Of a stretch of 64,000 bases of DNA, positions 53,694 to 62,401 are shown in pieces. The DNA comes from Thermogladius calderae 1633 (lineage in GTDB: Archaea > Thermoproteota > Thermoprotei_A > Sulfolobales > Desulfurococcaceae). The stretch covers positions 496,001-560,000 of the forward strand of contig NC_017954.1 in the NCBI RefSeq assembly GCF_000264495.1, written 5' to 3'. The number at the start of each line of letters is the position of its first letter. Position 1 is the first letter of the stretch. The notes below the pieces were generated by a model. It was given only the letters and a program-made list of their open reading frames with translations. It searched no databases and was not told the origin of the DNA. The position numbers were made by a program, and so were the translations under genes.

Positions 53694-53759
53694 AGTAACC
53701 CCTAAGAACGAGACTGGATTTACACTGTTAAATAATCGCCTAACGCAGGGGAGAGCATG

Positions 53760-53834
53760 TGCCGCCGCCGGGATTTGAACCCGGGTCACGGGCTCGAAAG
53801 GCCCGCATACTTGACCGGGCTATACTACGGCGGC
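53760..53834 (-). tRNA. tRNA-Glu (TTC)
   Basis: Reverse strand: acceptor GCCGCCG pairs with CGGCGGC, anticodon stem CGGGC/GCCCG encloses CTTTCGA (anticodon TTC), T arm CCGGG-TTCAAAT-CCCGG, discriminator A at 53760. No intron, no encoded CCA. Confidence 0.94.
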
Positions 53835-53927
53835 CAATCTATGCTATTCATCGAACGGGGTTAAATCCCTTCAGGCCCTAGTCTGCCGGAATTGGATATA
53901 AACTCCTGACAATAAGATAGAGAGTAG

Positions 53928-54003
53928 GCGGCGGTCGTCTAGCCTGGACTAGGACGCCGGCCTTCCAAGCCGGAAATCCCGGGTTCAAATCCCGGCCGCC
54001 GCA
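53928..54003 (+). tRNA. tRNA-Gly (TCC)
   Basis: Acceptor GCGGCGG pairs with CCGCCGC (53996-54002), discriminator A 54003. Anticodon stem CCGGC/GCCGG encloses CTTCCAA (anticodon TCC). T arm CCGGG-TTCAAAT-CCCGG. Divergent from tRNA-Glu. Confidence 0.94.
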
Positions 54004-54332
54004 CTCCGAACACTTTTCGTCATGGGAGCTCAACAGCAAACCCCTTAGCTAAGCAGGCGTAGCGCGCCAGGACGCAATCACGGACACCCTCAACACCGAG
54101 ACCGGGAGATCGGTCGTCATTTCTTTCCCGCGGAGCCTTGGGGTCACAATAGTGCGGGTCGGATGAAGGTACTCACCTAGACTAGGATGGTGTTCTACGG
54201 CTTCGAGAGACCGTACGTTCCTGGTTCTCTTATAAGGAGTTGTACATAACTGTGTAACACGTCTTTTATACAGTTAATTAAACCAAAATTTTAAATTTTG
54301 GACGCGCTAGTATACGGTAGGGCTTACAAACG
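54004..54332. other. 329-bp region between tRNA-Gly and the membrane complex operon
   Basis: No coding frame. The right end is strongly AT-rich (54250-54300) and contains the 19-bp inverted repeat and likely promoter of the operon. The left part is G+C-rich and unexplained. Confidence 0.55.
54283..54301. promoter_or_regulatory. Inverted repeat with TATA-like centre before the membrane complex operon
   Basis: CCAAAATTTTAAATTTTGG: two perfect 9-nt arms around a single T. It is 32-50 nt before the first GTG (54333), and its centre TTTTAAAT can serve as the TATA box. A regulator bound here would block TBP access, so this may be an operator/promoter overlap. Confidence 0.55.
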
Positions 54333-55862
54333 GTGTTTAAATTGCTGGGCGTTGATTTGTACCCGCCTCTCATACCGTACGCTTTGATCGGCTTCGCATT
54401 TCTCCTCCCGTTACTGAGAGTTTTGGGTGTTAAGAGGTCGGTATCGAGGGACCTGGCTCTAATAGCCACTCTCGCGGCTTTGTACGGCTCTCTTGAGGTC
54501 TACAGGTCTGCCTCCAGTGGCGTCCTTGTGTACACTATAGGAGGCTTTCCGATCCCTGTCGGCATAGCCTACGTTGTCGACGGCTTCTCGGCCCTGTTTG
54601 GTCTACTGATAGCAACGCTGTTCGCCGTGCTAACCCCTGTCTCACCCGTCTTCGTGGAGGACAACGAGTACTTCTACTCTGCTCTACTCGGCCTGGAGGC
54701 CGGCCTACTAGGAGTCGTATACACGGGTGACGTGTTCAACATGTTCGTTATGCTAGAGGTGTTCACTATTTCGGCTTTCGTTCTTATATCCGCGTCCAAG
54801 ACGAGAGGTGCTTACAGGGCAACGATCACGTACGCCATAGTCGGCATGGTCGCGGGCACGCTGTTCTTTTTCGCGGCAGTACTAATCTACTACGTCGCGG
54901 GCTCCCTGAACATAGGGCACGTCGCGGCCATGGTCTCAGGGATCGCCCCGCCTGCGGGAAGGACTAGTCTGGTGCAGCTAGCCATACTAATGCCCCTCTT
55001 CATAATCACGTGGTCAATGCTGGCCGAGTCCGCGATCTCCCCCCTCCACTTCTGGCTGCCCGAGGCCTACACTCACGCGCCGCCCGTGGTGTCCTCCCTC
55101 TTGAGCGGCCTGGCCGAGGGCGTGGCCTTCTACGTTATAGCCCGGGTCTACTACACGATATACTCCGGCATCCCGCCTTACATCCAGTTGATGCTGTCGA
55201 TCCTGGGAGGGCTCACGGTAGGGGTAGCTGGTGCCGGGTTACTTGCGTCGAAGGACCTGTTGAAGGTGGCAGGCTACACCGTGATACTGGACTCGGGCTT
55301 CATGGCCTTAGCCCTGTCAATGGGTGCGAGAGGGTTACCGGTCTTAATAGCGTACGCAATAGCACACGCCTTCGTCAAGCCCATCATCTTCCTAGTTGGC
55401 GGCTACGCGACGAGGTTGAGAGTCGGCGTTTTGAGGAAGAGCTGGCCCTTAGCGGCCTCTTTCATGATCGGGGTGCTCAACATCGTCGGCGTGCCGCCCA
55501 CAGCGCTGTTCATGGCAAAGTTGCAGCTATACCAGGTAGCACTAGAGTCCCTCGGGTCGAACAGCGTGCCGGCGCTCATAACCCTGGTCAGCCTACCCGT
55601 GGGCTCCGTAATGGCTTTAATAGGGTTCATGAAGGTACTACCGCCCCTTGTGGCAACGGAAACTAGAGAGGCAGCAGAAAAACCGCCGAGGTACTTGATG
55701 GCTCTCGTGCTCTACCTTGCCCTGGCTAGTTTGCTTCTCGGAATTCTCTATAACCAGGTACAAGCCGTCGTATCCTCCTCTGTCGAATCCATGCTGAACA
55801 GGCTCTCATACATTGGTTCGGCCTTGGGGAAGACAACGGAGGTGGTGTACTCCTATGGCTAG
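54333..55862 (+). CDS. Mbh/Mbx H-like subunit (MrpD/NuoN-family antiporter-like)
   Basis: Membrane ion-translocating subunit, 509 residues, ~14 hydrophobic segments. NuoN/MrpD core features: GLEAGLLGVVYTGDVFNMFV (Glu in TM5), SAISPLHFWLPEAYTHAPPV with VVSSLLSG (discontinuous TM7 and loop), AYAIAHAFVKPIIFLVGG (His/Lys region). First gene of the operon, GTG 54333. It is the only full antiporter-like subunit present. Its end overlaps the next gene by 8 nt. Confidence 0.92.
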   Translation: MFKLLGVDLYPPLIPYALIGFAFLLPLLRVLGVKRSVSRDLALIATLAALYGSLEVYRSASSGVLVYTIGGFPIPVGIAYVVDGFSALFGLLIATLFAVLTPVSPVFVEDNEYFYSALLGLEAGLLGVVYTGDVFNMFVMLEVFTISAFVLISASKTRGAYRATITYAIVGMVAGTLFFFAAVLIYYVAGSLNIGHVAAMVSGIAPPAGRTSLVQLAILMPLFIITWSMLAESAISPLHFWLPEAYTHAPPVVSSLLSGLAEGVAFYVIARVYYTIYSGIPPYIQLMLSILGGLTVGVAGAGLLASKDLLKVAGYTVILDSGFMALALSMGARGLPVLIAYAIAHAFVKPIIFLVGGYATRLRVGVLRKSWPLAASFMIGVLNIVGVPPTALFMAKLQLYQVALESLGSNSVPALITLVSLPVGSVMALIGFMKVLPPLVATETREAAEKPPRYLMALVLYLALASLLLGILYNQVQAVVSSSVESMLNRLSYIGSALGKTTEVVYSYG

Positions 55863-56853
55863 CTTGCTAGGGAGGCTCGTAGACTGGGCTAGGTCGAGGA
55901 GCCCCTGGATGATACACTACTGCGCGGCCTGCGGGGCAGTGGAGTTCCCGCCCCTAGTGATGTCCCCGCTGGACTGGGAGCGCTACGGCTACATGCCCGT
56001 CCCGTCGCCTAGGCAGGCAGACTTCGTAGCTGGAATGGGCTACTTGACAAGGAAGACAGTGAAGCTGATGATAAACCTCTTCAGGCAGACCCCGAACCCG
56101 AAGTTCGTGGTGGCTGGTTGCAACTGTACCGCCACTGGAGGCCTCTACTGGGATTCGTACGCGACTTACAAGAGGCTGGACGACTTCTTCACGGTCTCCG
56201 GCTGGGTCCCCGGTTGCATGCCAATGCCGGACGACTGGACGGCCCTGATCACAGACCTCAGGAGGCAGATCTACGAGGGCTTGAAGGGAGACAAGCTAAA
56301 GGACGCCGAGGAGTTTATCGCGAGGGTCGAGGAGGGCGAGAGGAGGTGGCGGGAGGAGTACTTTGCCAAGCCCCAGCCCCCGGTCAACTACGCATTCAAG
56401 GAGACCTACCCTGAGTGCGAGGAGATGTACGAGAGGGCCAAGCTCTGCGTGACCAGCGTGAGAAGAGAGAGGCTTAAGACAGCCCTATCGGAGCTCAAGG
56501 AGAAGGGCTTCGTGCTACTCTCCAACATCGACGCAGTCGACTACCCCAAGAACGGCGTCATAGAGCTGTACTACTTCGTAGAAAACAAGGACGACTCGTC
56601 CCAGGTTGCTTTGAAGACCTTCGTGCCGAGGTCCGAGCCTGAGATTGAAAGCGTTCACGACCTCTACCCCAACGCCCTGTTCATCGAGAGAGAAGTCTAC
56701 GAGATGATGGGGGTCGTTTTCAAGGGCCACCCGGAGCTCAGGAAGTGGATACTCGACGGCAACTGGGAGGGACCTCCCCCACTGAGGAAGGACGTGGACA
56801 CAGCTACCTACGTCGTCAAAACGTTCTACGGGGGTGACAAGTATGGCAGGTAG
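55855..56853 (+). CDS. Fused NuoB-like and NuoC-like subunit (MbhJ-MbhK equivalent)
   Basis: 332 residues. Residues ~1-150 are the small electron-transfer subunit with a proximal [4Fe-4S] site: IHYCAACGAVEFPP (Cys23, Cys26), VVAGCNCTATGG (Cys89/91) and WVPGCMPMPDDW (Cys121). After a charged helical linker (~150-200) comes a NuoC-like domain, with ALFIEREVYEMMGVVFKGHP (signature) and PPLRKD. In Pyrococcus Mbh and Mbx these are separate J and K genes, so this is a fusion. No stop or frameshift separates the parts. ATG 55855. Confidence 0.92.
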   Translation: MASLLGRLVDWARSRSPWMIHYCAACGAVEFPPLVMSPLDWERYGYMPVPSPRQADFVAGMGYLTRKTVKLMINLFRQTPNPKFVVAGCNCTATGGLYWDSYATYKRLDDFFTVSGWVPGCMPMPDDWTALITDLRRQIYEGLKGDKLKDAEEFIARVEEGERRWREEYFAKPQPPVNYAFKETYPECEEMYERAKLCVTSVRRERLKTALSELKEKGFVLLSNIDAVDYPKNGVIELYYFVENKDDSSQVALKTFVPRSEPEIESVHDLYPNALFIEREVYEMMGVVFKGHPELRKWILDGNWEGPPPLRKDVDTATYVVKTFYGGDKYGR

Positions 56854-57940
56854 ATACATGCTGTACTTCGGGCCGCAGCACCCGGGAGCGCCGGGGAACG
56901 TAGGGTTCAGGCTAGAAATGGAGGGGGAGAGGGTAGTACGGGCCGAGCTAATACCCGGCTTCCTCCACCGCGGCTTCGAGAAGATGATGGAGAACAGGAA
57001 GTGGGAGAACAGCTACGTCCTGTCCTACAGGTTCTGCGTCGAGGACCCCGACCCGTTCGAGGTCGCCTACGCAGAGGCGCTTGACATGGTGTTCAAGGTG
57101 GACCCGCCCCCTAAGGCCAAGTACTTCAGAATGATACAGGCCGAGTTCTCTAGGATAGCGTCTCACATGTTCTGGACCCACTTCATGCTGGGATCTGTCG
57201 GCTTGAGGACACCGGCTTACTGGGCCCTCGCAGCTAGGGAAGAGATACTGAAGTGGTTTGCCTGGGTCACCGGTCACAGGATATACCACAACTTCAGCGT
57301 CCCCGGGGGTATCAGGAGCGACGTGCCGCAGGACTTTCAGAGTAGAACACTTGACCTGACCTACCGCGTCGAGGACCTTGTCAAGGACGTGGAGAAGGCG
57401 GCGCTGGGGAACAGGGTCTTCAAGAGGAGGACGAGAGGGATCGGTGTGGTCAAGGGCGAGACGGCCCTCAGGCTCGGTGCCACAGGCCCGGTCGTAAGAG
57501 GGGGCGGGCTAGCCTACGACGTGAGGAAGCTCGCACCCTACGAGCGCTACGACAGCGTCAACTTCGAGGTACCGGTTGGAGAGGTCGGTGACGCGTACGA
57601 CAGGGCTCTCGTGAGGTTCAGGGAAGTCCATGAGAGCCTTAAGATCATAAGGCAGGCGACCATGGAAGTGAGACCAGGCGGCCCATATAGGGTAAAAATA
57701 CCCCTTACAGCACCTCCTGGGAGAGGGTATGCGAGAGTCGAGTCGGCGAGGGGCGAGTATACTGTTCACGTCACGAGCGTTGGCGGGAGGTCGCCGTACA
57801 GGGTGAGGTTCAAGAGCCCCTCGATGCCACTGCTCACGACGGTGTTGGACTACATCATAAAGAACGAAGAGGTAACAATAGCAGACCTCCCAGTGATACT
57901 CGCCTCCCTAGATCCGTGCGCGCCCGATATAGACAGGTGA
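56843..57940 (+). CDS. NuoD/hydrogenase large subunit-like protein with CxxD/CxxD site (MbxL-type)
   Basis: 365 residues. Overall fold of the group 4 NiFe large subunit/NuoD: FGPQHPGAPGNVGFRLE, ELIPGFLHRGFEKMMENRKW, ARMIQAEFSRI-like block FRMIQAEFSRIASHMFWTHF, RLGATGPVVRGGG. The NiFe ligands are altered: N-terminal pair reads CVED (Cys65, Asp68), C-terminal pair reads DPCAPD (Cys359, Asp362). Two of four cysteines are thus replaced by Asp, as expected for Mbx/Mbs- or Ehr-type complexes and not for a working hydrogenase. ATG 56843 overlaps the previous gene by 11 nt. Confidence 0.93.
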   Translation: MAGRYMLYFGPQHPGAPGNVGFRLEMEGERVVRAELIPGFLHRGFEKMMENRKWENSYVLSYRFCVEDPDPFEVAYAEALDMVFKVDPPPKAKYFRMIQAEFSRIASHMFWTHFMLGSVGLRTPAYWALAAREEILKWFAWVTGHRIYHNFSVPGGIRSDVPQDFQSRTLDLTYRVEDLVKDVEKAALGNRVFKRRTRGIGVVKGETALRLGATGPVVRGGGLAYDVRKLAPYERYDSVNFEVPVGEVGDAYDRALVRFREVHESLKIIRQATMEVRPGGPYRVKIPLTAPPGRGYARVESARGEYTVHVTSVGGRSPYRVRFKSPSMPLLTTVLDYIIKNEEVTIADLPVILASLDPCAPDIDR

Positions 57941-57944
57941 TACC

Positions 57945-58394
57945 ATGGTACTCTCCACAATAGCCGAGGCGGTAAAGTACCTCTTCAAGAGGCCCTACAC
58001 GAGACTAGTCCCAGCCAAGACGGGGCCTTTCAAGGCTGACAAAATGAGAGGTGCTCACATACTCGACATGTCGAAATGCACGGGGTGCTCGATGTGCCAG
58101 CTGGTCTGCCCAGCGAACGCGATCGACATGGTCGAGGTCCCCGGCCAGTACCCCCAGAACCCCAGGAGGAGGTTCCCTAGGATAGACCTCCACAAGTGCA
58201 CTTTCTGCGCCCTCTGCGTCGAGTACTGCCCGTTTGACGCCCTCTACATGACGAGCGTGACGGGCTTCGAGCTCTACACTAGGGACAAGTCCACGACGCT
58301 CAAGAGCCCGGTCGAGCTCTCCAGAGGGGACTACACGCTCGTGACAGTAAAGAGGGATCTCTACGTGATTAAGGAGGTGAAGGCCAGTGGTTGA
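57945..58394 (+). CDS. NuoI-like 2[4Fe-4S] ferredoxin subunit (MbhN-type)
   Basis: 149 residues. Two complete ferredoxin motifs: CTGCSMCQLVCPANAI and CTFCALCVEYCPFDAL. It probably receives electrons from soluble ferredoxin and passes them to the NuoB-like cluster. Starts ATG 57945, 4 nt after the large-subunit stop. The C-terminal 45 residues (ELYTRDKSTTLKSP...) form a short extension. Confidence 0.94.
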   Translation: MVLSTIAEAVKYLFKRPYTRLVPAKTGPFKADKMRGAHILDMSKCTGCSMCQLVCPANAIDMVEVPGQYPQNPRRRFPRIDLHKCTFCALCVEYCPFDALYMTSVTGFELYTRDKSTTLKSPVELSRGDYTLVTVKRDLYVIKEVKASG

Positions 58395-58668
58395 CGCCTC
58401 GCTACTAAACTACGTGTTGCCGGTCGTACTGGGGGTCTACGGGCTCGCCTACTCCATCTACAGCATAGTCGTACTGAGGGGGCCGACGGTCCCAGACATG
58501 GTGTTAGCACTAGACGTCATGACCGTGGACCTGATCATTATCTACCTCTTGATAGCCTTGTTCTACGAGTCTCCAATGCTCGCGATCGGAGCGATCCCCC
58601 TGGCTTCGTGGATTCTGCTACTCGACTTCGTAGTCGCGAAGTACCTGTTGGAGGTGAGGAAGAAGTGA
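58387..58668 (+). CDS. MrpF-like subunit (MbhB-type)
   Basis: 93 residues, three hydrophobic segments: LPVVLGVYGLAYSIYSIVVL, LDVMTVDLIIIYLLIALFY, IPLASWILLLDFVVAKYLL. RGPTVPDMVLALDV matches the MrpF RGPTxxDR/M block. GTG 58387 overlaps the ferredoxin gene by 8 nt. Confidence 0.88.
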   Translation: MVDASLLNYVLPVVLGVYGLAYSIYSIVVLRGPTVPDMVLALDVMTVDLIIIYLLIALFYESPMLAIGAIPLASWILLLDFVVAKYLLEVRKK

Positions 58669-59030
58669 TCGACATACTGCTGTTCATACTAGGCTCCTCC
58701 CTGCTGGTCTTGAGCGCGGTACTCTCCCTGATCGGCGCGGTCGGCTTCCTGCGGTTCAGGAACTTCTTTCTTAGACTACACCCAGCCACGGTGGGGTCTA
58801 TAGGCGGCGGGGTCTACGGACTGATCGGCCTAGCACTGCTAACGCTCTCACTCGACGTACCCGGCTACTTGAAGTACTACATATTCGGCGTCGCGATTGT
58901 CTCGGCGGCTCTCGTGGTCTTTGCCTCCCCTACAGGCTCGCACATCCTCGCCAGAGCTGCCTACAGGTCAGGCGAGGCCGTACCCCGACCCCTGATTAGA
59001 GACAAACTAAAGGAGGCCGGCCTCGAATGA
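58665..59030 (+). CDS. MrpG-like subunit (MbhC-type)
   Basis: 121 residues, three membrane segments: ILLFILGSSLLVLSAVLSLI, GVYGLIGLALLTLSL, YIFGVAIVSAALVVFASPTG. AVGFLRFRNFFLRLHPATVG is the MrpG signature, and SPTGSHILARAAYRSG matches the family C-terminus. Start GTG 58665 overlaps the stop of the MrpF-like gene. Confidence 0.9.
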   Translation: MIDILLFILGSSLLVLSAVLSLIGAVGFLRFRNFFLRLHPATVGSIGGGVYGLIGLALLTLSLDVPGYLKYYIFGVAIVSAALVVFASPTGSHILARAAYRSGEAVPRPLIRDKLKEAGLE

Positions 59031-59281
59031 CCCCCGTCATCATCCTGCTCCTCAGCGCGTTCAGCGCGGTAATGGCTTTGATCGCCACGATAAAAATAGT
59101 CTACGAGAGAGACGTCTTGAAGACTATAATAATCTCAGGTGTCGAGTCGCTTTTCTACTCCATTATACTCGCCAGTTTCCTGGCCCCCGACCTGCTCATC
59201 GCGTATATAGCCGTAGGCCTAGGCCTCAACTCGGCGATCCTCCTGTACGCCCTGAGAGGGGGTGAGAGGTATGAGGAGTAG
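59027..59281 (+). CDS. MbhD-like subunit (MrpA C-terminal-type, DUF4040)
   Basis: 84 residues, three membrane helices: IILLLSAFSAVMALIATIKI, TIIISGVESLFYSIILASFL, LLIAYIAVGLGLNSAILLYA. DLLIAYIAVG resembles the DxxxTEAxVG region of MrpA/MbhD. ATGA overlap with the MrpG-like gene; overlaps the next gene by 11 nt. Confidence 0.85.
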   Translation: MTPVIILLLSAFSAVMALIATIKIVYERDVLKTIIISGVESLFYSIILASFLAPDLLIAYIAVGLGLNSAILLYALRGGERYEE

Positions 59282-60068
59282 GGGTACACTCGAGGACGTA
59301 GGACTGGTTTTGTCCATACTCTTAGGGGTTCTACTGACCTACTACCTGGTTAGAGCTGACGTGGTCTCTTTGACGTACGGGAACATCCCGTTGGCAAACC
59401 TCTACTTGAGAACCGTGCCCGACCCCAGCTCGCTGTTCACTAGTAGGAGCCCCGAGGTAGTTACCAGCGTTATATGGGACCAGAGGGGGTACGACACTTA
59501 CTTCGAGACCTCGGTGCTGTTCATTGCGATCATAGGGGTGCTCTACCTAGCCAGTTTAACAGGTGGACTTTATAAAAGCTCTGTCTCCACGGTGATACCC
59601 AGGGTGATTACGAAGATACTCTTCCCCGTTATAGTCGCCGTTTCTGTGTCTGTCGCGCTACACGGTCACCTCACACCTGGCGGAGGCTTTCAGGGAGGCT
59701 CCATTTTCGCGGTCGCCCCCTTCCTGTACCTCCTAGTGTTTGGACGGAGTTTGCTAGAGGGGAAGGGGTTCAGGTCCAACGCACTAATATTCGCGAGGTC
59801 GCTAGCCGTATTCTTAATTACGGTCGTCGGCTCAATAGTTCTGGTCATCGGCCTGCTCACCGGCGTCCCTGCTTTCCTCTTCCAGAACCAGCCGAAGCCG
59901 CAGCTCTCCCCAATAGGCTACCCGGCTTACGTAGTGTTACCATGGGGTAGCGTCCTCCTGTTCTCTGGTACCCTCATGATACTAAACGTTCTGGAGTTTA
60001 CCGCTGTCTCGACGGGCTTCACGTTAGCCTTAATTGTCATAGATACCGTGACAGGTGGTAGAGAGTGA
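59271..60068 (+). CDS. Fused MbhE-MbhF subunit (MrpB-like)
   Basis: 265 residues. The N-terminal ~105 residues match MbhE (membrane segment, then WDQRGYDTYFETSVLFIAII). The rest is MrpB-like: VSVSVALHGHLTPGGGFQGG (signature GGGFQGG), plus four or five membrane helices. In Pyrococcus, E and F are separate genes. ATG 59271 with GTGAGAGG just upstream; GTG 59262 is an alternative. Overlaps its neighbours. Confidence 0.88.
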   Translation: MRSRGTLEDVGLVLSILLGVLLTYYLVRADVVSLTYGNIPLANLYLRTVPDPSSLFTSRSPEVVTSVIWDQRGYDTYFETSVLFIAIIGVLYLASLTGGLYKSSVSTVIPRVITKILFPVIVAVSVSVALHGHLTPGGGFQGGSIFAVAPFLYLLVFGRSLLEGKGFRSNALIFARSLAVFLITVVGSIVLVIGLLTGVPAFLFQNQPKPQLSPIGYPAYVVLPWGSVLLFSGTLMILNVLEFTAVSTGFTLALIVIDTVTGGRE

Positions 60069-60469
60069 TCGAGGGGGTCCTGTTCTACCTAATAGTCTTC
60101 GCGGTGGGCGTAACGATCGGGGTGTCGATTTACGGGATCATTGTTAGGCCGCACATCGTTAAGAAACTAGTGTTGCTGACGATCTTGACCGACGCCGTCA
60201 ACGTCATGGCAGTGCTCTTCGGCTACTACTTAAGGGCAATCTCGCCGCCCGTCTATCCAGGAGGCTCCCTCGAGGACTTCACCTTCCCGTCGAGCGGTGA
60301 GCTGAAAGAATTCTCCTCTATAAGCGTCGACCCGATACCGCAAGTCCTCATCGTCACAGCGATAGTCATAGGATTAGCAGAGCTGATTTTCCTCTCCCTT
60401 GTCACATACAACATTGGCGTGAACTACAAGACATTGATGATTAACAAGCTGGAGGTGGAGGAGCAGTGA
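60065..60469 (+). CDS. MrpC/NuoK-like subunit (MbhG-type)
   Basis: 134 residues with three hydrophobic segments (LIVFAVGVTIGVSIYGIIV, LTILTDAVNVMAVLFGYYL, VLIVTAIVIGLAELIFLSL). A ~35-residue loop between segments 2 and 3 (SPPVYPGGSLEDFTFPSSGE) is longer than usual. DPIPQVLIVTAIVIG is the MrpC/NuoK signature (DPxPQALVLTAIVI). GTG 60065, 4-nt overlap. Confidence 0.9.
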   Translation: MIEGVLFYLIVFAVGVTIGVSIYGIIVRPHIVKKLVLLTILTDAVNVMAVLFGYYLRAISPPVYPGGSLEDFTFPSSGELKEFSSISVDPIPQVLIVTAIVIGLAELIFLSLVTYNIGVNYKTLMINKLEVEEQ

Positions 60470-60960
60470 AGAGGCTCCTGGTGGTGGGACTCTCTATAGC
60501 CCTCGTATACCTGGTGTACACTGGGACCCTTAGCATAGTCGAGGTCCTTATAGCGATCGGCATTGGGTTCGCTTTAAGTGGGATTATAGGGGTAGACCTA
60601 GTCAAAGACGAGAGCAAGCTCAATGCTAGGAGGTTCTTCGAGGCTGTTAAGTATACTTTTAAGTACTTCACGATCATAGAGTACCTCGCCCACTACTCGG
60701 TAGTTAAAGCAATACTGTCAAGGGACCCGGGGCTGAAGCCGGCTATTGTCGAGGTACCTTACTATGTGAACAGCGAGATAGCCATAGTAACGATCGCGAA
60801 CTCTATAACCAACACCCCGGGCACGGTCGTGGTAGACGTAGACGAAAAGAGGAAGAGGTTCTACGTACACTGGATCTTTGCCGAGGCGTTCGAGGGCGAG
60901 GAGGCGAGGAAAGGTGTCTCGGCGGAGTTCGAGGACTGGGCTAAGAAGATATTCGATTAG
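60466..60960 (+). CDS. MrpE-like subunit (MbhA-type)
   Basis: 164 residues: two N-terminal hydrophobic segments (LLVVGLSIALVYLVYTGTL, VLIAIGIGFALSGIIGV), a third weaker one around YTFKYFTIIEYLAHY, then a soluble C-terminal domain with NSITNTPGTVVVDVDEKR, the MrpE hallmark (SITLTPGT-like). GTG 60466, 4-nt overlap with the MrpC-like gene. Confidence 0.9.
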   Translation: MKRLLVVGLSIALVYLVYTGTLSIVEVLIAIGIGFALSGIIGVDLVKDESKLNARRFFEAVKYTFKYFTIIEYLAHYSVVKAILSRDPGLKPAIVEVPYYVNSEIAIVTIANSITNTPGTVVVDVDEKRKRFYVHWIFAEAFEGEEARKGVSAEFEDWAKKIFD

Positions 60961-60969
60961 GTGATGGCT

Positions 60970-61320
60970 ATGCTCCTAGACCTCTACACCCTGACAGCGG
61001 TAGTCGTGGCGACCGCCGCTCTCACGGGTCTTGTAGTGTACGTCGCCTTCTACTGGCTCTTCCAACAAGTGGCTGGTAGGAGGGAGACCGAGGAAGACGA
61101 GGTAAAGAGGAAGATCGTTTTCTCGGGCTTTATAGTGGACAAGCCCGAGTTCCCCAGCCTCGTTGAACTCGTTAAGGACATCTATTCAAGGGCTTTCAGG
61201 AAGGGCTTCAGGGTCATCGAGAGGACGTCGAGAGGCCTAGTCGTGGACTGGTACCTCGTCGGCTACTTACTCATGCTCGCCCTGCTTATAGCGGGTGTCG
61301 TGATATGGTTCACCAGGTAA
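60970..61320 (+). CDS. MbhI-like small membrane subunit
   Basis: 116 residues with one N-terminal helix (LTAVVVATAALTGLVVYVAF) and one C-terminal helix (YLVGYLLMLALLIAGVVIWF), joined by a charged cytosolic domain (ETEEDEVKRKIVFSGFIVDK). The layout and position just before the NuoH-like gene fit MbhI, which links the antiporter and hydrogenase-like modules. ATG 60970 follows AGGTGAT; GTG 60961 and ATG 60964 are alternatives. Confidence 0.7.
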   Translation: MLLDLYTLTAVVVATAALTGLVVYVAFYWLFQQVAGRRETEEDEVKRKIVFSGFIVDKPEFPSLVELVKDIYSRAFRKGFRVIERTSRGLVVDWYLVGYLLMLALLIAGVVIWFTR

Positions 61321-62276
61321 TCTGGTTCTTATTCGAGTCCCTTGTCTACCCCGGGCTCGTTTTCATAATCCTACTGATAATATTCACCCAGTGGCTCTAC
61401 AGGAAGCTGTCTGCTAGGATCCAGTATAGGAGGGGGCCTATACACTCAGGCCCATTCGGGATACTCCAGCCCCTCGCCGACTTAATAAAGCTGCTTGCTA
61501 AGGAGGACGTTTACAATGTCTTCGGCCTCAATATACCACCTCTAGTAGTGATCTCCCTCGCGATAGGTGCTCTCTCGAGCGTTACACTACTTACACCGCT
61601 GGCGCTGAAGCCCCTCTACGCGCCTTTCGACGCGGTACTAGTCCTCTACTTACTAGCGTTCGTACCTTTCGCGATAGCGTACCTGGCGCTCTCAAACCCC
61701 AACCCGTATACCTCCATAGGCGTTGCGAGGTACCTGGCCCTCCTAATAGCGGCTGAGCCCCCCTACATACTGTCGTTCCTAGCGCCCTTGATAATAGCAG
61801 CCAAGTATGAGGGTACAGAGTACTCAGTCTACCTAACGAGCAACTTCTCGTACAGGCTGTGGGCGGAGAACCCGGCGTCCATGGCACTAGCCGCGGCGTC
61901 TTCCTTCATAGCTGTCATGGCGTTGCTGATGGTTAAGCCCTTCGACTCTCCTGAGGCCGAGGCGGAAATCTACTGGGGCCTGTTCACCGAGTTGGGAGGT
62001 CCGAGACTTGCGTTGGGCATGTTCGCGAAGTTCGCTGAGAGGATAGTGTACCCCCTGTTCTTCGCCCTGCTCTTCCTCGGAGGCCCCTGGCCCTTCCAGG
62101 GTTCGGGCCTGCTACCAGTTACGGTGGTTCTACTGAAGTACCTCGTCGTATACGTGGTGCTCACGATATTAGACAACAGCCTGCCGAGGTATAGGCCGGA
62201 CCAGGCGGTCGAGTTCCTCATTAAGTACCTGTACCCAATGTCTATAATATCACTAGTTCTAGCGGTAGTGTTGTGA
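61305..62276 (+). CDS. NuoH-like membrane anchor subunit (MbhM-type)
   Basis: 323 residues, ~8 membrane helices. RIQYRRGPIHSGPFGILQPL and ADLIKLLAKEDV are the NuoH/complex I ND1 blocks, and KPFDSPEAEAEIYWGLFTEL the acidic loop that faces the large subunit. LDNSLPRYRPDQAVEFLIKY is the conserved C-terminal part. ATG 61305 overlaps the MbhI-like gene by 16 nt. Last gene of the operon. Confidence 0.94.
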   Translation: MVHQVIWFLFESLVYPGLVFIILLIIFTQWLYRKLSARIQYRRGPIHSGPFGILQPLADLIKLLAKEDVYNVFGLNIPPLVVISLAIGALSSVTLLTPLALKPLYAPFDAVLVLYLLAFVPFAIAYLALSNPNPYTSIGVARYLALLIAAEPPYILSFLAPLIIAAKYEGTEYSVYLTSNFSYRLWAENPASMALAAASSFIAVMALLMVKPFDSPEAEAEIYWGLFTELGGPRLALGMFAKFAERIVYPLFFALLFLGGPWPFQGSGLLPVTVVLLKYLVVYVVLTILDNSLPRYRPDQAVEFLIKYLYPMSIISLVLAVVL

Positions 62277-62326: not shown

Positions 62327-62401
62327 TGGGGCCGCGGGGATTTGAACCCCGGGTCACGGGGGCCCAAGCCCCGCATCCTAGCCAGGCTAGACTACGGCCC
62401 C
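62327..62401 (-). tRNA. tRNA-Pro (TGG)
   Basis: Reverse strand: acceptor GGGGCCG pairs with CGGCCCC, anticodon stem CGGGG/CCCCG encloses CTTGGGC (anticodon TGG), T arm CGGGG-TTCAAAT-CCCCG, discriminator A at 62327. No intron, no encoded CCA. Confidence 0.93.

Follow-up and report, generated by a model that had tools for sequence, protein, structure and literature searches.

The window, a stretch of 64,000 nucleotides from Thermogladius calderae 1633 (NC_017954.1, positions 496,001 to 560,000), carries at positions 54333–62276 a hydrogenase-like gene cluster, with all genes on the plus strand. The cluster opens with H (54333–55862; PF00361), the MrpD/NuoN-like antiporter subunit, whose nearest PDB chains are 7qru_D, 6u8y_H, 6z16_D, and 6cfw_H, and which profile match and synteny identify as the sole subunit of this type in the cluster. 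It is followed by JK (55855–56853), a fusion of a NuoB-like and a NuoC-like protein (PF01058 and PF00329) that contains the proximal [4Fe-4S] subunit, by the NuoD/MbsL-like large subunit L (56843–57940; 365 aa; PF00346, 238 bits; 6u8y_L, 4.7e-83), and by the ferredoxin-like N (57945–58394), in which two intact [4Fe-4S] motifs (CTGCSMCQLVCP and CTFCALCVEYCP) are found in the translation and PF00037 matches twice.

The remaining genes encode membrane subunits. These are an MrpF-like protein (58387–58668; PF04066), an MrpG-like protein (58665–59030; PF03334), a small subunit that matches COG1563 and the N-terminus of MrpB (59027–59281; assigned through synteny and table 4 of the Staphylothermus marinus genome paper), an MrpB-like protein (59262–60068; PF04039), an MrpC-like protein (60065–60469; synteny and profile match), an MrpE-like protein (60466–60960; PF01899), the 119-aa, two-helix protein I (60961–61320), and the NuoH-like anchor M (61305–62276; PF00146, 215 bits). 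The open reading frame of the MrpG-like gene begins at 58608, and a start near 58665 matches the length of its orthologues. The ferredoxin, NuoB-like, NuoH-like, and Mrp-like neighbors that the earlier note had listed are all present according to Pfam and translation. A 19-bp palindrome lies ahead of the operon, and the relatives have no conserved copy of it.

Protein I is a homolog of MbhI, a relationship visible only through a family profile, which matches the NuoH-adjacent gene in crenarchaeal operons for MBH, the membrane-bound, energy-converting NiFe hydrogenase (loci L146, 8.8e-9; L139, 2.4e-5; L141, 1.3e-4). The single sequence has no Pfam or NCBIfam match, pairwise BLASTP found no match to the MbhI of the same genome, phmmer returned nothing meaningful from the PDB, and Foldseek found no match for the AlphaFold model, which is weak (pLDDT 71, pTM 0.32). 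The S. marinus paper leaves the orthologue unassigned. This layout, with one H and an MbhI homolog, recurs in all complete syntenic MBX loci, whereas complete loci of the membrane-bound sulfane reductase (MBS) elsewhere have two antiporters. The one-antiporter, MbhI-containing membrane arm goes beyond what the earlier note described, as does the additional cysteine of J discussed below.

The large subunit and its CxxD/CxxD pairs

The earlier note had read the remnants of the two NiFe-binding pairs of L as Cys65-x-x-Asp68 and Cys359-x-x-Asp362, and the translation confirms this reading (SYRFC65VED68PDPFE, with C65-V-E-D68 at 57035–57046, and SLDPC359APD362IDR, with C359-A-P-D362 at 57917–57928). 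The protein has no C-terminal maturation extension beyond its final DIDR motif. We compared L with its orthologues (n = 23, comprising the window's own copy and 22 from other genomes, three of them from the same genus; 52–98% identity) and found CVED and C[ASTP]PD in 23/23. Chance and a sequencing error at the two pairs are both excluded by the agreement of the orthologues from the 22 other genomes.

The double aspartate, which the earlier note had regarded as special, turned out to belong to a family-wide pattern. The large-subunit survey yielded CxxD/CxxE 35 times, CxxD/CxxD 31 times, CxxE/CxxD 16 times, and CxxE/CxxE 10 times, with CxxC/CxxC in nine hydrogenase-type subunits; where archaeal and bacterial MBS-type homologs keep the first cysteine of each pair, the second position is almost always Asp or Glu. 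In the alignment, C65 and C359 occupy the columns of C85 and C385 of Pyrococcus furiosus MbsL (6u8y_L), which has CVPE and CPPD at the matching positions, and the aspartate of the second pair is also found in Nqo4 of complex I. The quinone residues H38 and Y87 of Nqo4 are replaced by Pro and Val in 23/23 orthologues, and the column of MbhL E21 holds Gly. CxxD/CxxD is a known mark of the MBS-type family and not an unusual feature, and L has lost its NiFe site in the MBS manner.

The earlier note had also proposed that electrons from ferredoxin reach a modified site at these pairs. This part of the proposal is not supported. P. furiosus MBS retains normal activity when C85A and C385A are combined, and the published work locates catalysis at the proximal [4Fe-4S] cluster of MbsJ, which has three Cys ligands (PMC7684303). 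Since mutants of both remaining MBS cysteines stay fully active, catalysis at a "modified NiFe site" is not to be expected, and the Cys/Asp remnants of L are presumably structural. A novel metal site formed by CxxD/CxxD was likewise rejected, given that the signature is family-wide and the cysteines are dispensable in the published MBS mutants.

The proximal-cluster subunit and its extra cysteine

The JK open reading frame begins at TTG 55813, and alignment with the same-genus orthologue favors ATG 55855 as the start. The best PDB match of the first half is 6u8y_J and that of the second half is 6u8y_K. The AlphaFold model of JK gives complex I- and MBS-type matches to NuoC and NuoB in Foldseek, and its pLDDT of 63 is too weak for cysteine geometry.

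Alignments place the CAAC motif of J (C37 and C40, counted from the start of the 55813 frame; 55921–55932) at the spacing of MbsJ C25/C28, in a loop three residues shorter than that of MBH (IHYCAACGAVE, compared with VAFCTGCGGIE in MbsJ and VHFNTGACNGCDIE in the organism's own MbhJ). Further downstream, a GCNC motif contains C103-N-C105 (56119–56127). C105 corresponds to the MbsJ ligand C93, and C103 is an extra cysteine two residues ahead of it. J thus retains the three canonical ligands of the proximal cluster, with Cys103 beside them invariant across all MBX J sequences surveyed; apart from the MBX clade and most gammaproteobacterial MBS, almost every relative has Gly here.

The extra cysteine is likely to tune the proximal cluster or to serve as one of its ligands. 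It could be the fourth ligand that is missing in P. furiosus MBS, in which case it may shut the open iron site that underlies the MBS mechanism. A broader possibility, which we regard as tentative and rather improbable, is that the Desulfurococcaceae and, independently, many Gammaproteobacteria have re-closed or re-equipped the open iron of the MBS catalytic cluster through the extra cysteine of the CxC in J, and that they would reduce sulfur or another acceptor by a mechanism unlike the one that P. furiosus MBS uses at its site-differentiated cluster, in the present case with a one-pump arm.

Placement among related complexes

Several results support the earlier note's view of an MBX/MBS-like complex that is no hydrogenase. 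The top solved homolog of L is MbsL, at 282 bits compared with 132 bits for MbhL; the loop of J is short; and, in the tree of large subunits, a branch with 99% support sets L, together with MBS and NuoD, apart from every CxxC hydrogenase. Placing L in a clade with MBH large subunits, the outcome that the earlier note had named as refuting, was rejected (AU p = 0.0003). A position of MBX adjoining the hydrogenase branch gave AU p = 0.23, and its grouping with two-pump MBS had an SH-aLRT of 82, so that its exact placement within the non-hydrogenase side is tentative. The Mrp subunits of MBX lie with crenarchaeal MBH, and a 100%-supported branch separates them from MBS. Taken together, these sequence affinities indicate a catalytic arm of MBS type and a membrane arm of MBH type with one antiporter and an MbhI homolog.

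Comparison with known systems follows the same division. As in P. furiosus MBS (formerly MBX; PDB 6U8Y), the first Cys of each L pair is kept and the second is acidic, the J loop is short and has CxxC, N carries two clusters, and the membrane arm is Mrp-derived with a NuoH anchor. Unlike P. furiosus MBS, which has H and H′, the window's complex has one antiporter, an MbhI homolog, a J-K fusion, a different gene order, and the invariant Cys before the equivalent of MbsJ C93. MBH (PDB 6CFW and the organism's own copy) shares the single antiporter, MbhI, the Mrp small subunits, and NuoH, but has CxxC/CxxC, the longer J loop, adjoining hyp genes, and a large subunit that is only about 34% identical. 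Complex I (NuoD/Nqo4) shares the Asp of the second pair and homologous NuoB/C/D/H/I-type subunits, but the window's complex lacks H38/Y87 and an NADH module and has CxxC in place of the CC motif. The locus had already been listed as mbx-related in S. marinus (Smar_0645-0657) and Thermosphaera aggregans (Tagg_1025-1036); these orthologous loci have the same gene order, one MnhD, and CxxD/CxxD, although Staphylothermus encodes J and K separately. The accessible descriptions make no mention of the MbhI homolog, the MBS-type catalytic signatures, or the extra Cys.

Predicted function and its meaning

We interpret the cluster, with a probability of roughly 70%, as the Desulfurococcaceae MBX complex, a one-pump variant of MBS that would reduce polysulfide with electrons from ferredoxin and pump ions in the process. 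In this scheme, N would take electrons from reduced ferredoxin, and the electrons would travel over three [4Fe-4S] clusters to the proximal one in J, predicted to sit where a hydrophobic chamber enclosed by J, L, and M ends. Polysulfide would be cleaved there, without proton reduction, and the redox event would be relayed via loops of L, M, and I to the membrane arm, which would export Na+ (or H+) by means of a single proton pump, compared with two in P. furiosus MBS. The physiology of relatives bears on this reading. According to its genome paper, S. marinus depends on sulfur, produces H2S, and has none of the other known sulfur reductases, and among its three complexes only the orthologue of the window's complex is without CxxC. 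H2S is also made by T. aggregans and Desulfurococcus. Counted against the reading is a soluble four-subunit NiFe hydrogenase of sulfhydrogenase type in the window's genome, which is a possible alternative sulfur reductase. The possible closure of the open iron by the J cysteine, the tentative placement in the tree, and the presence of the complex in the sulfur-inhibited T. aggregans also weigh against it.

An acceptor other than sulfane sulfur, such as NADP+ via a partner or a small disulfide, with the cluster fully ligated by Cys103, is an unlikely alternative. It would account for the invariance of Cys103 in a clade whose relatives nearly all keep Gly, and for T. aggregans, which carries the complex yet is inhibited in growth by sulfur; an older proposal assigned NADPH production to the MBX of P. 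furiosus and T. aggregans. However, P. furiosus MBX later proved to be a polysulfide reductase, and no NAD(P)H-binding subunit is encoded in the cluster, whereas many bacterial homologs have N fused to an FAD/NAD(P) domain.

Two further explanations are far less probable. That a NiFe-type or other metal site persists between the Cys/Asp pairs, making the complex a modified hydrogenase, seems very improbable: every orthologue does keep two Cys and two carboxylates at the old NiFe-ligand positions, and the genome has maturation genes, but the equivalent two MbsL cysteines are dispensable, L ends without a maturation extension, and no hyp gene was recognized among the open reading frames at 50–64 kb of the window. 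Our check for hyp genes elsewhere in the genome, which the earlier note had proposed, placed hypC/E/F beside the true MBH (at about 1.21 Mb, with CGIC/CISC) and HypD at 783 kb. Equally hard to credit is a degenerate complex that has lost catalysis and serves mainly as an ion antiporter. The MBH and two further CxxC complexes of this genome could carry the electron flow; however, divergent genera retain all Fe-S cysteines and all 12–13 genes in syntenic order, which implies selection on the electron path.

What appears less ordinary about the polysulfide reductase proposed here is the combination of an MBS-type arm with a one-pump, hydrogenase-type base, and the unvarying Cys beside the catalytic cluster. 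The authors of the P. furiosus structure (PMC7684303) propose that the two pumps allow MBS to conserve about twice the energy of MBH, from which the MrpA-type pump would have been lost. Joining the catalytic arm of MBS to the membrane arm of MBH would separate these variables, with an equal reaction and one pump versus two, and a natural one-pump complex would make energy yield measurable as a function of pump number. The complex also allows the idea of modular evolution toward complex I to be put to the test, and its invariant J Cys would test the need for an open iron site in sulfane reduction. For S. marinus, the 2009 genome paper gives the sulfur role mainly to Smar_1057-1071, a cluster in which the large subunit retains CxxC/CxxC; the orthologue of the window's complex would be the best candidate for this organism's sulfur reductase.

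Large subunit and catalytic arm

The earlier note had read the large subunit (56843-57940) of the hydrogenase-like cluster at 54333-62276, which we call MBX together with its orthologues in Desulfurococcaceae, as carrying CxxD/CxxD in place of the NiFe-binding CxxC/CxxC. Translation bears this out: the 365-aa product, a Complex1_49kDa match of 238 bits (Pfam), has C65-V-E-D68 and, shortly before a terminal DIDR, C359-A-P-D362. As a special trait the motif did not hold up, since all 23 orthologues, and nearly all homologues of the type of the membrane-bound sulfane reductase (MBS) that keep the first Cys of each pair, have an acidic residue there. These 23 genes, including the window's own, came from a search of 61 genomes and share 52-100% identity, with a wide gap below them to full-length paralogues at no more than 39%; CVED and C[ASTP]PD occur in 23/23, both pairs being invariant in the alignment. 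Beyond this search, 80 additional loci came from scanning GTDB genomes. In about 95 large-subunit rows (including the 23), the first Cys of both pairs is kept and the second is lost, almost always to Asp or Glu, while NiFe-type large subunits have CxxC/CxxC in 9/9 rows. Pyrococcus furiosus MbsL has CVPE/CPPD, compared with CVED/CAPD in the window, and in P. furiosus MBS a C85A/C385A double mutant, altered in both retained cysteines, shows normal activity (PMC7684303). In substance, the CxxD/CxxD finding is already known.

In nine large subunits the first Cys is gone too; those of L091, L098, L101, L105, L107, L112, L113, L115, and L122 contain none of the four NiFe cysteines (N..E / V..E and similar). 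Most such homologues with a readable NuoB-like J subunit retain the MBS-type J loop, and they possibly represent a further step toward complex I. In the Asgard loci L097 and L122 (Heimdall-/Sigynarchaeota), a 671-aa fusion combines J- and L-type sequence.

The best solved match of the MBX large subunit is 6u8y_L of P. furiosus MBS (282 bits), versus 132 bits for MbhL (6cfw_L) of the membrane-bound NiFe hydrogenase (MBH), and the nearest solved J chain is 6u8y_J. In the large-subunit tree, 13 MBX rows form a single clade (100% support) that joins two-pump MBS (82%), and a 99% branch parts MBX, NuoD, and MBS from all CxxC hydrogenases. The alignment and tree proposed in the earlier note gave no clustering with MBH large subunits, a grouping that a constrained-tree test rejected (p=0.0003), and the complex is MBS-like. 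A position beside the whole hydrogenase side is compatible with the data (p=0.23), so that the exact depth given for MBX is provisional. The quinone columns H38 and Y87 of Nqo4 hold Pro and Val in 23/23 MBX orthologues, the MbhL E21 column holds Gly, and the J loop, IHYCAACGAVE, is the short MBS form. Judged from sequence, the catalytic arm of MBX is MBS-type.

The NuoB-NuoC fusion (JK) is a 346-aa ORF opening at 55813 (Pfam/NCBIfam), with its true start probably at ATG 55855, because the same-genus orthologue begins there; an AlphaFold model of JK was of poor quality. All MBX J sequences read carry G-C-N-C at the site of H-G-S-C in P. furiosus MbsJ and of M-G-A-C in complex I-type proteins. 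Of the two cysteines, the second is the canonical ligand (MbsJ C93); the first, whose thiol may reach the open iron, stands for a Gly otherwise nearly universal in the surveyed J and NuoB-type proteins. Most gammaproteobacterial MBS show the same Gly-to-Cys change as GICSC, which is not seen in Thiomargarita, Spirochaetes, or Thermococcus. On the large-subunit tree the extra cysteine requires two changes and was apparently gained separately in the MBX clade and in Gammaproteobacteria. Within loci L060-L099, many sulfur-oxidising Gammaproteobacteria carry GICSC in MBS-type J.

Membrane arm and operon surroundings

The remaining subunits are those that had been described from the sequence, and Pfam and NCBIfam matches refine that description. 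In every MBX locus read over its length the genes run H-J(K)-L-N-F-G-b-B-C-E-I-M with a single antiporter (H), whereas complete MBS-type loci (Thermococcus, many bacterial phyla) have E-F-G-b-B-C-H-H'-M-J-(K)-L-N with two, encoded by one 973-aa ORF in 2 loci. Among complete MBS-type loci, a single antiporter occurs only in a separate CVLE/CPAD group (L062, L095). The wider C[VI]LE/CPAD family (L055, L062, L083, L095, L106, L119; J motif FNWFNSCG) has one antiporter plus an MbhI-like gene where the locus is complete enough, and its hosts are Thermoplasmata, a Desulfurococcales MAG, and Desulfobacterota/Myxococcota MAGs.

The I subunit (60961-61320, 119 aa) lacks a Pfam or NCBIfam match; its family profile matches the gene adjoining NuoH in crenarchaeal MBH operons (best three, 8.8e-9, 2.4e-5, and 1.3e-4), which identifies the product, at profile level, as an MbhI homologue. 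It occupies the position of Smar_0656, left without assignment in the Staphylothermus marinus genome paper.

In a tree of six concatenated Mrp subunits, a 100% branch unites MBX with crenarchaeal MBH and an FHL-like complex versus two-pump MBS, and a clade of MBX with two-pump MBS was rejected (p=1e-8). The same picture comes from the NuoH tree (92% support; p=6e-5). Set against the large-subunit tree, these trees therefore indicate that the catalytic and membrane arms of MBX have different histories. Recombination of an antiporter cassette with divergent catalytic subunits has already been proposed for S. marinus; the present analysis adds which parts these are.

Upstream of the operon lie tRNA-Glu (-) and tRNA-Gly (+) at 53759-54004, and tRNA-Pro (-) follows directly downstream at 62327-62401. 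A palindrome with 9-bp arms, CCAAAATTTTAAATTTTGG (54283-54301), ends 31 bases 5' of the first gene; 4/1000 shuffles matched it, and no conservation was found in relatives.

Other redox systems and bacterial relatives

The Thermogladius calderae genome, a single contig of 1,356,318 bases in which the window spans 496001-560000, yielded no molybdopterin oxidoreductase (PF00384); among its pyridine-nucleotide oxidoreductase matches, the 3 read by sequence or context do not resemble a CoA-dependent sulfur reductase. It encodes a soluble, sulfhydrogenase-type NiFe hydrogenase with four subunits, which could be an additional sulfur reducer. Small as it is, the genome (L046, L044, L045, L047) also holds a true MBH and two further CxxC membrane complexes of the FHL/dehydrogenase-linked type; hyp genes lie beside the MBH.

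In many bacterial loci, L071:11101-12972 and L091:11080-12939 among them, the MBS-type N subunit is ~600 aa long and has gained Fer4_20 plus an FAD/NAD(P) oxidoreductase part, which suggests putative two-pump complexes linked to NAD(P)H. A paper on a Riftia symbiont lists a putative Mrp-Mbx complex, its direction given as unknown (PMC11636981).

Classification and proposed working

Compared with MBS, MBX shares the large-subunit motif, the short J loop, and the two-cluster N subunit of the catalytic arm and lacks the second pump; compared with MBH, it lacks the hydrogenase features and shares those of the membrane arm. Given this mixed match, we class MBX, on its gene content, as an MBS-related one-pump variant, set apart from MBS proper. 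The locus has already been published as mbx-related; the literature passages and searches covered yielded no description of the one-pump architecture or of the extra Cys at the catalytic cluster, and both are open to testing.

MBX has lost the NiFe ligands and kept all Fe-S ligands, and it combines the short J loop with an Mrp arm of one antiporter plus MbhI. In P. furiosus MBS, electrons pass from ferredoxin through N to the proximal cluster, where polysulfide is cleaved, and Na+/H+ transport is coupled through loops (PMC7684303). T. calderae MBX would carry out the same polysulfide reaction with a single proton pump. S. marinus needs sulfur and makes H2S while lacking sulfhydrogenase, NSR, and molybdo-type reductases, and the T. 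aggregans paper compares three species, each of which produces H2S. S. marinus has three complexes, of which the MBX orthologue alone is without CxxC; the other two have CGIC/CFSC and CGIC/CISC. This physiology fits a sulfur-reducing role of MBX.
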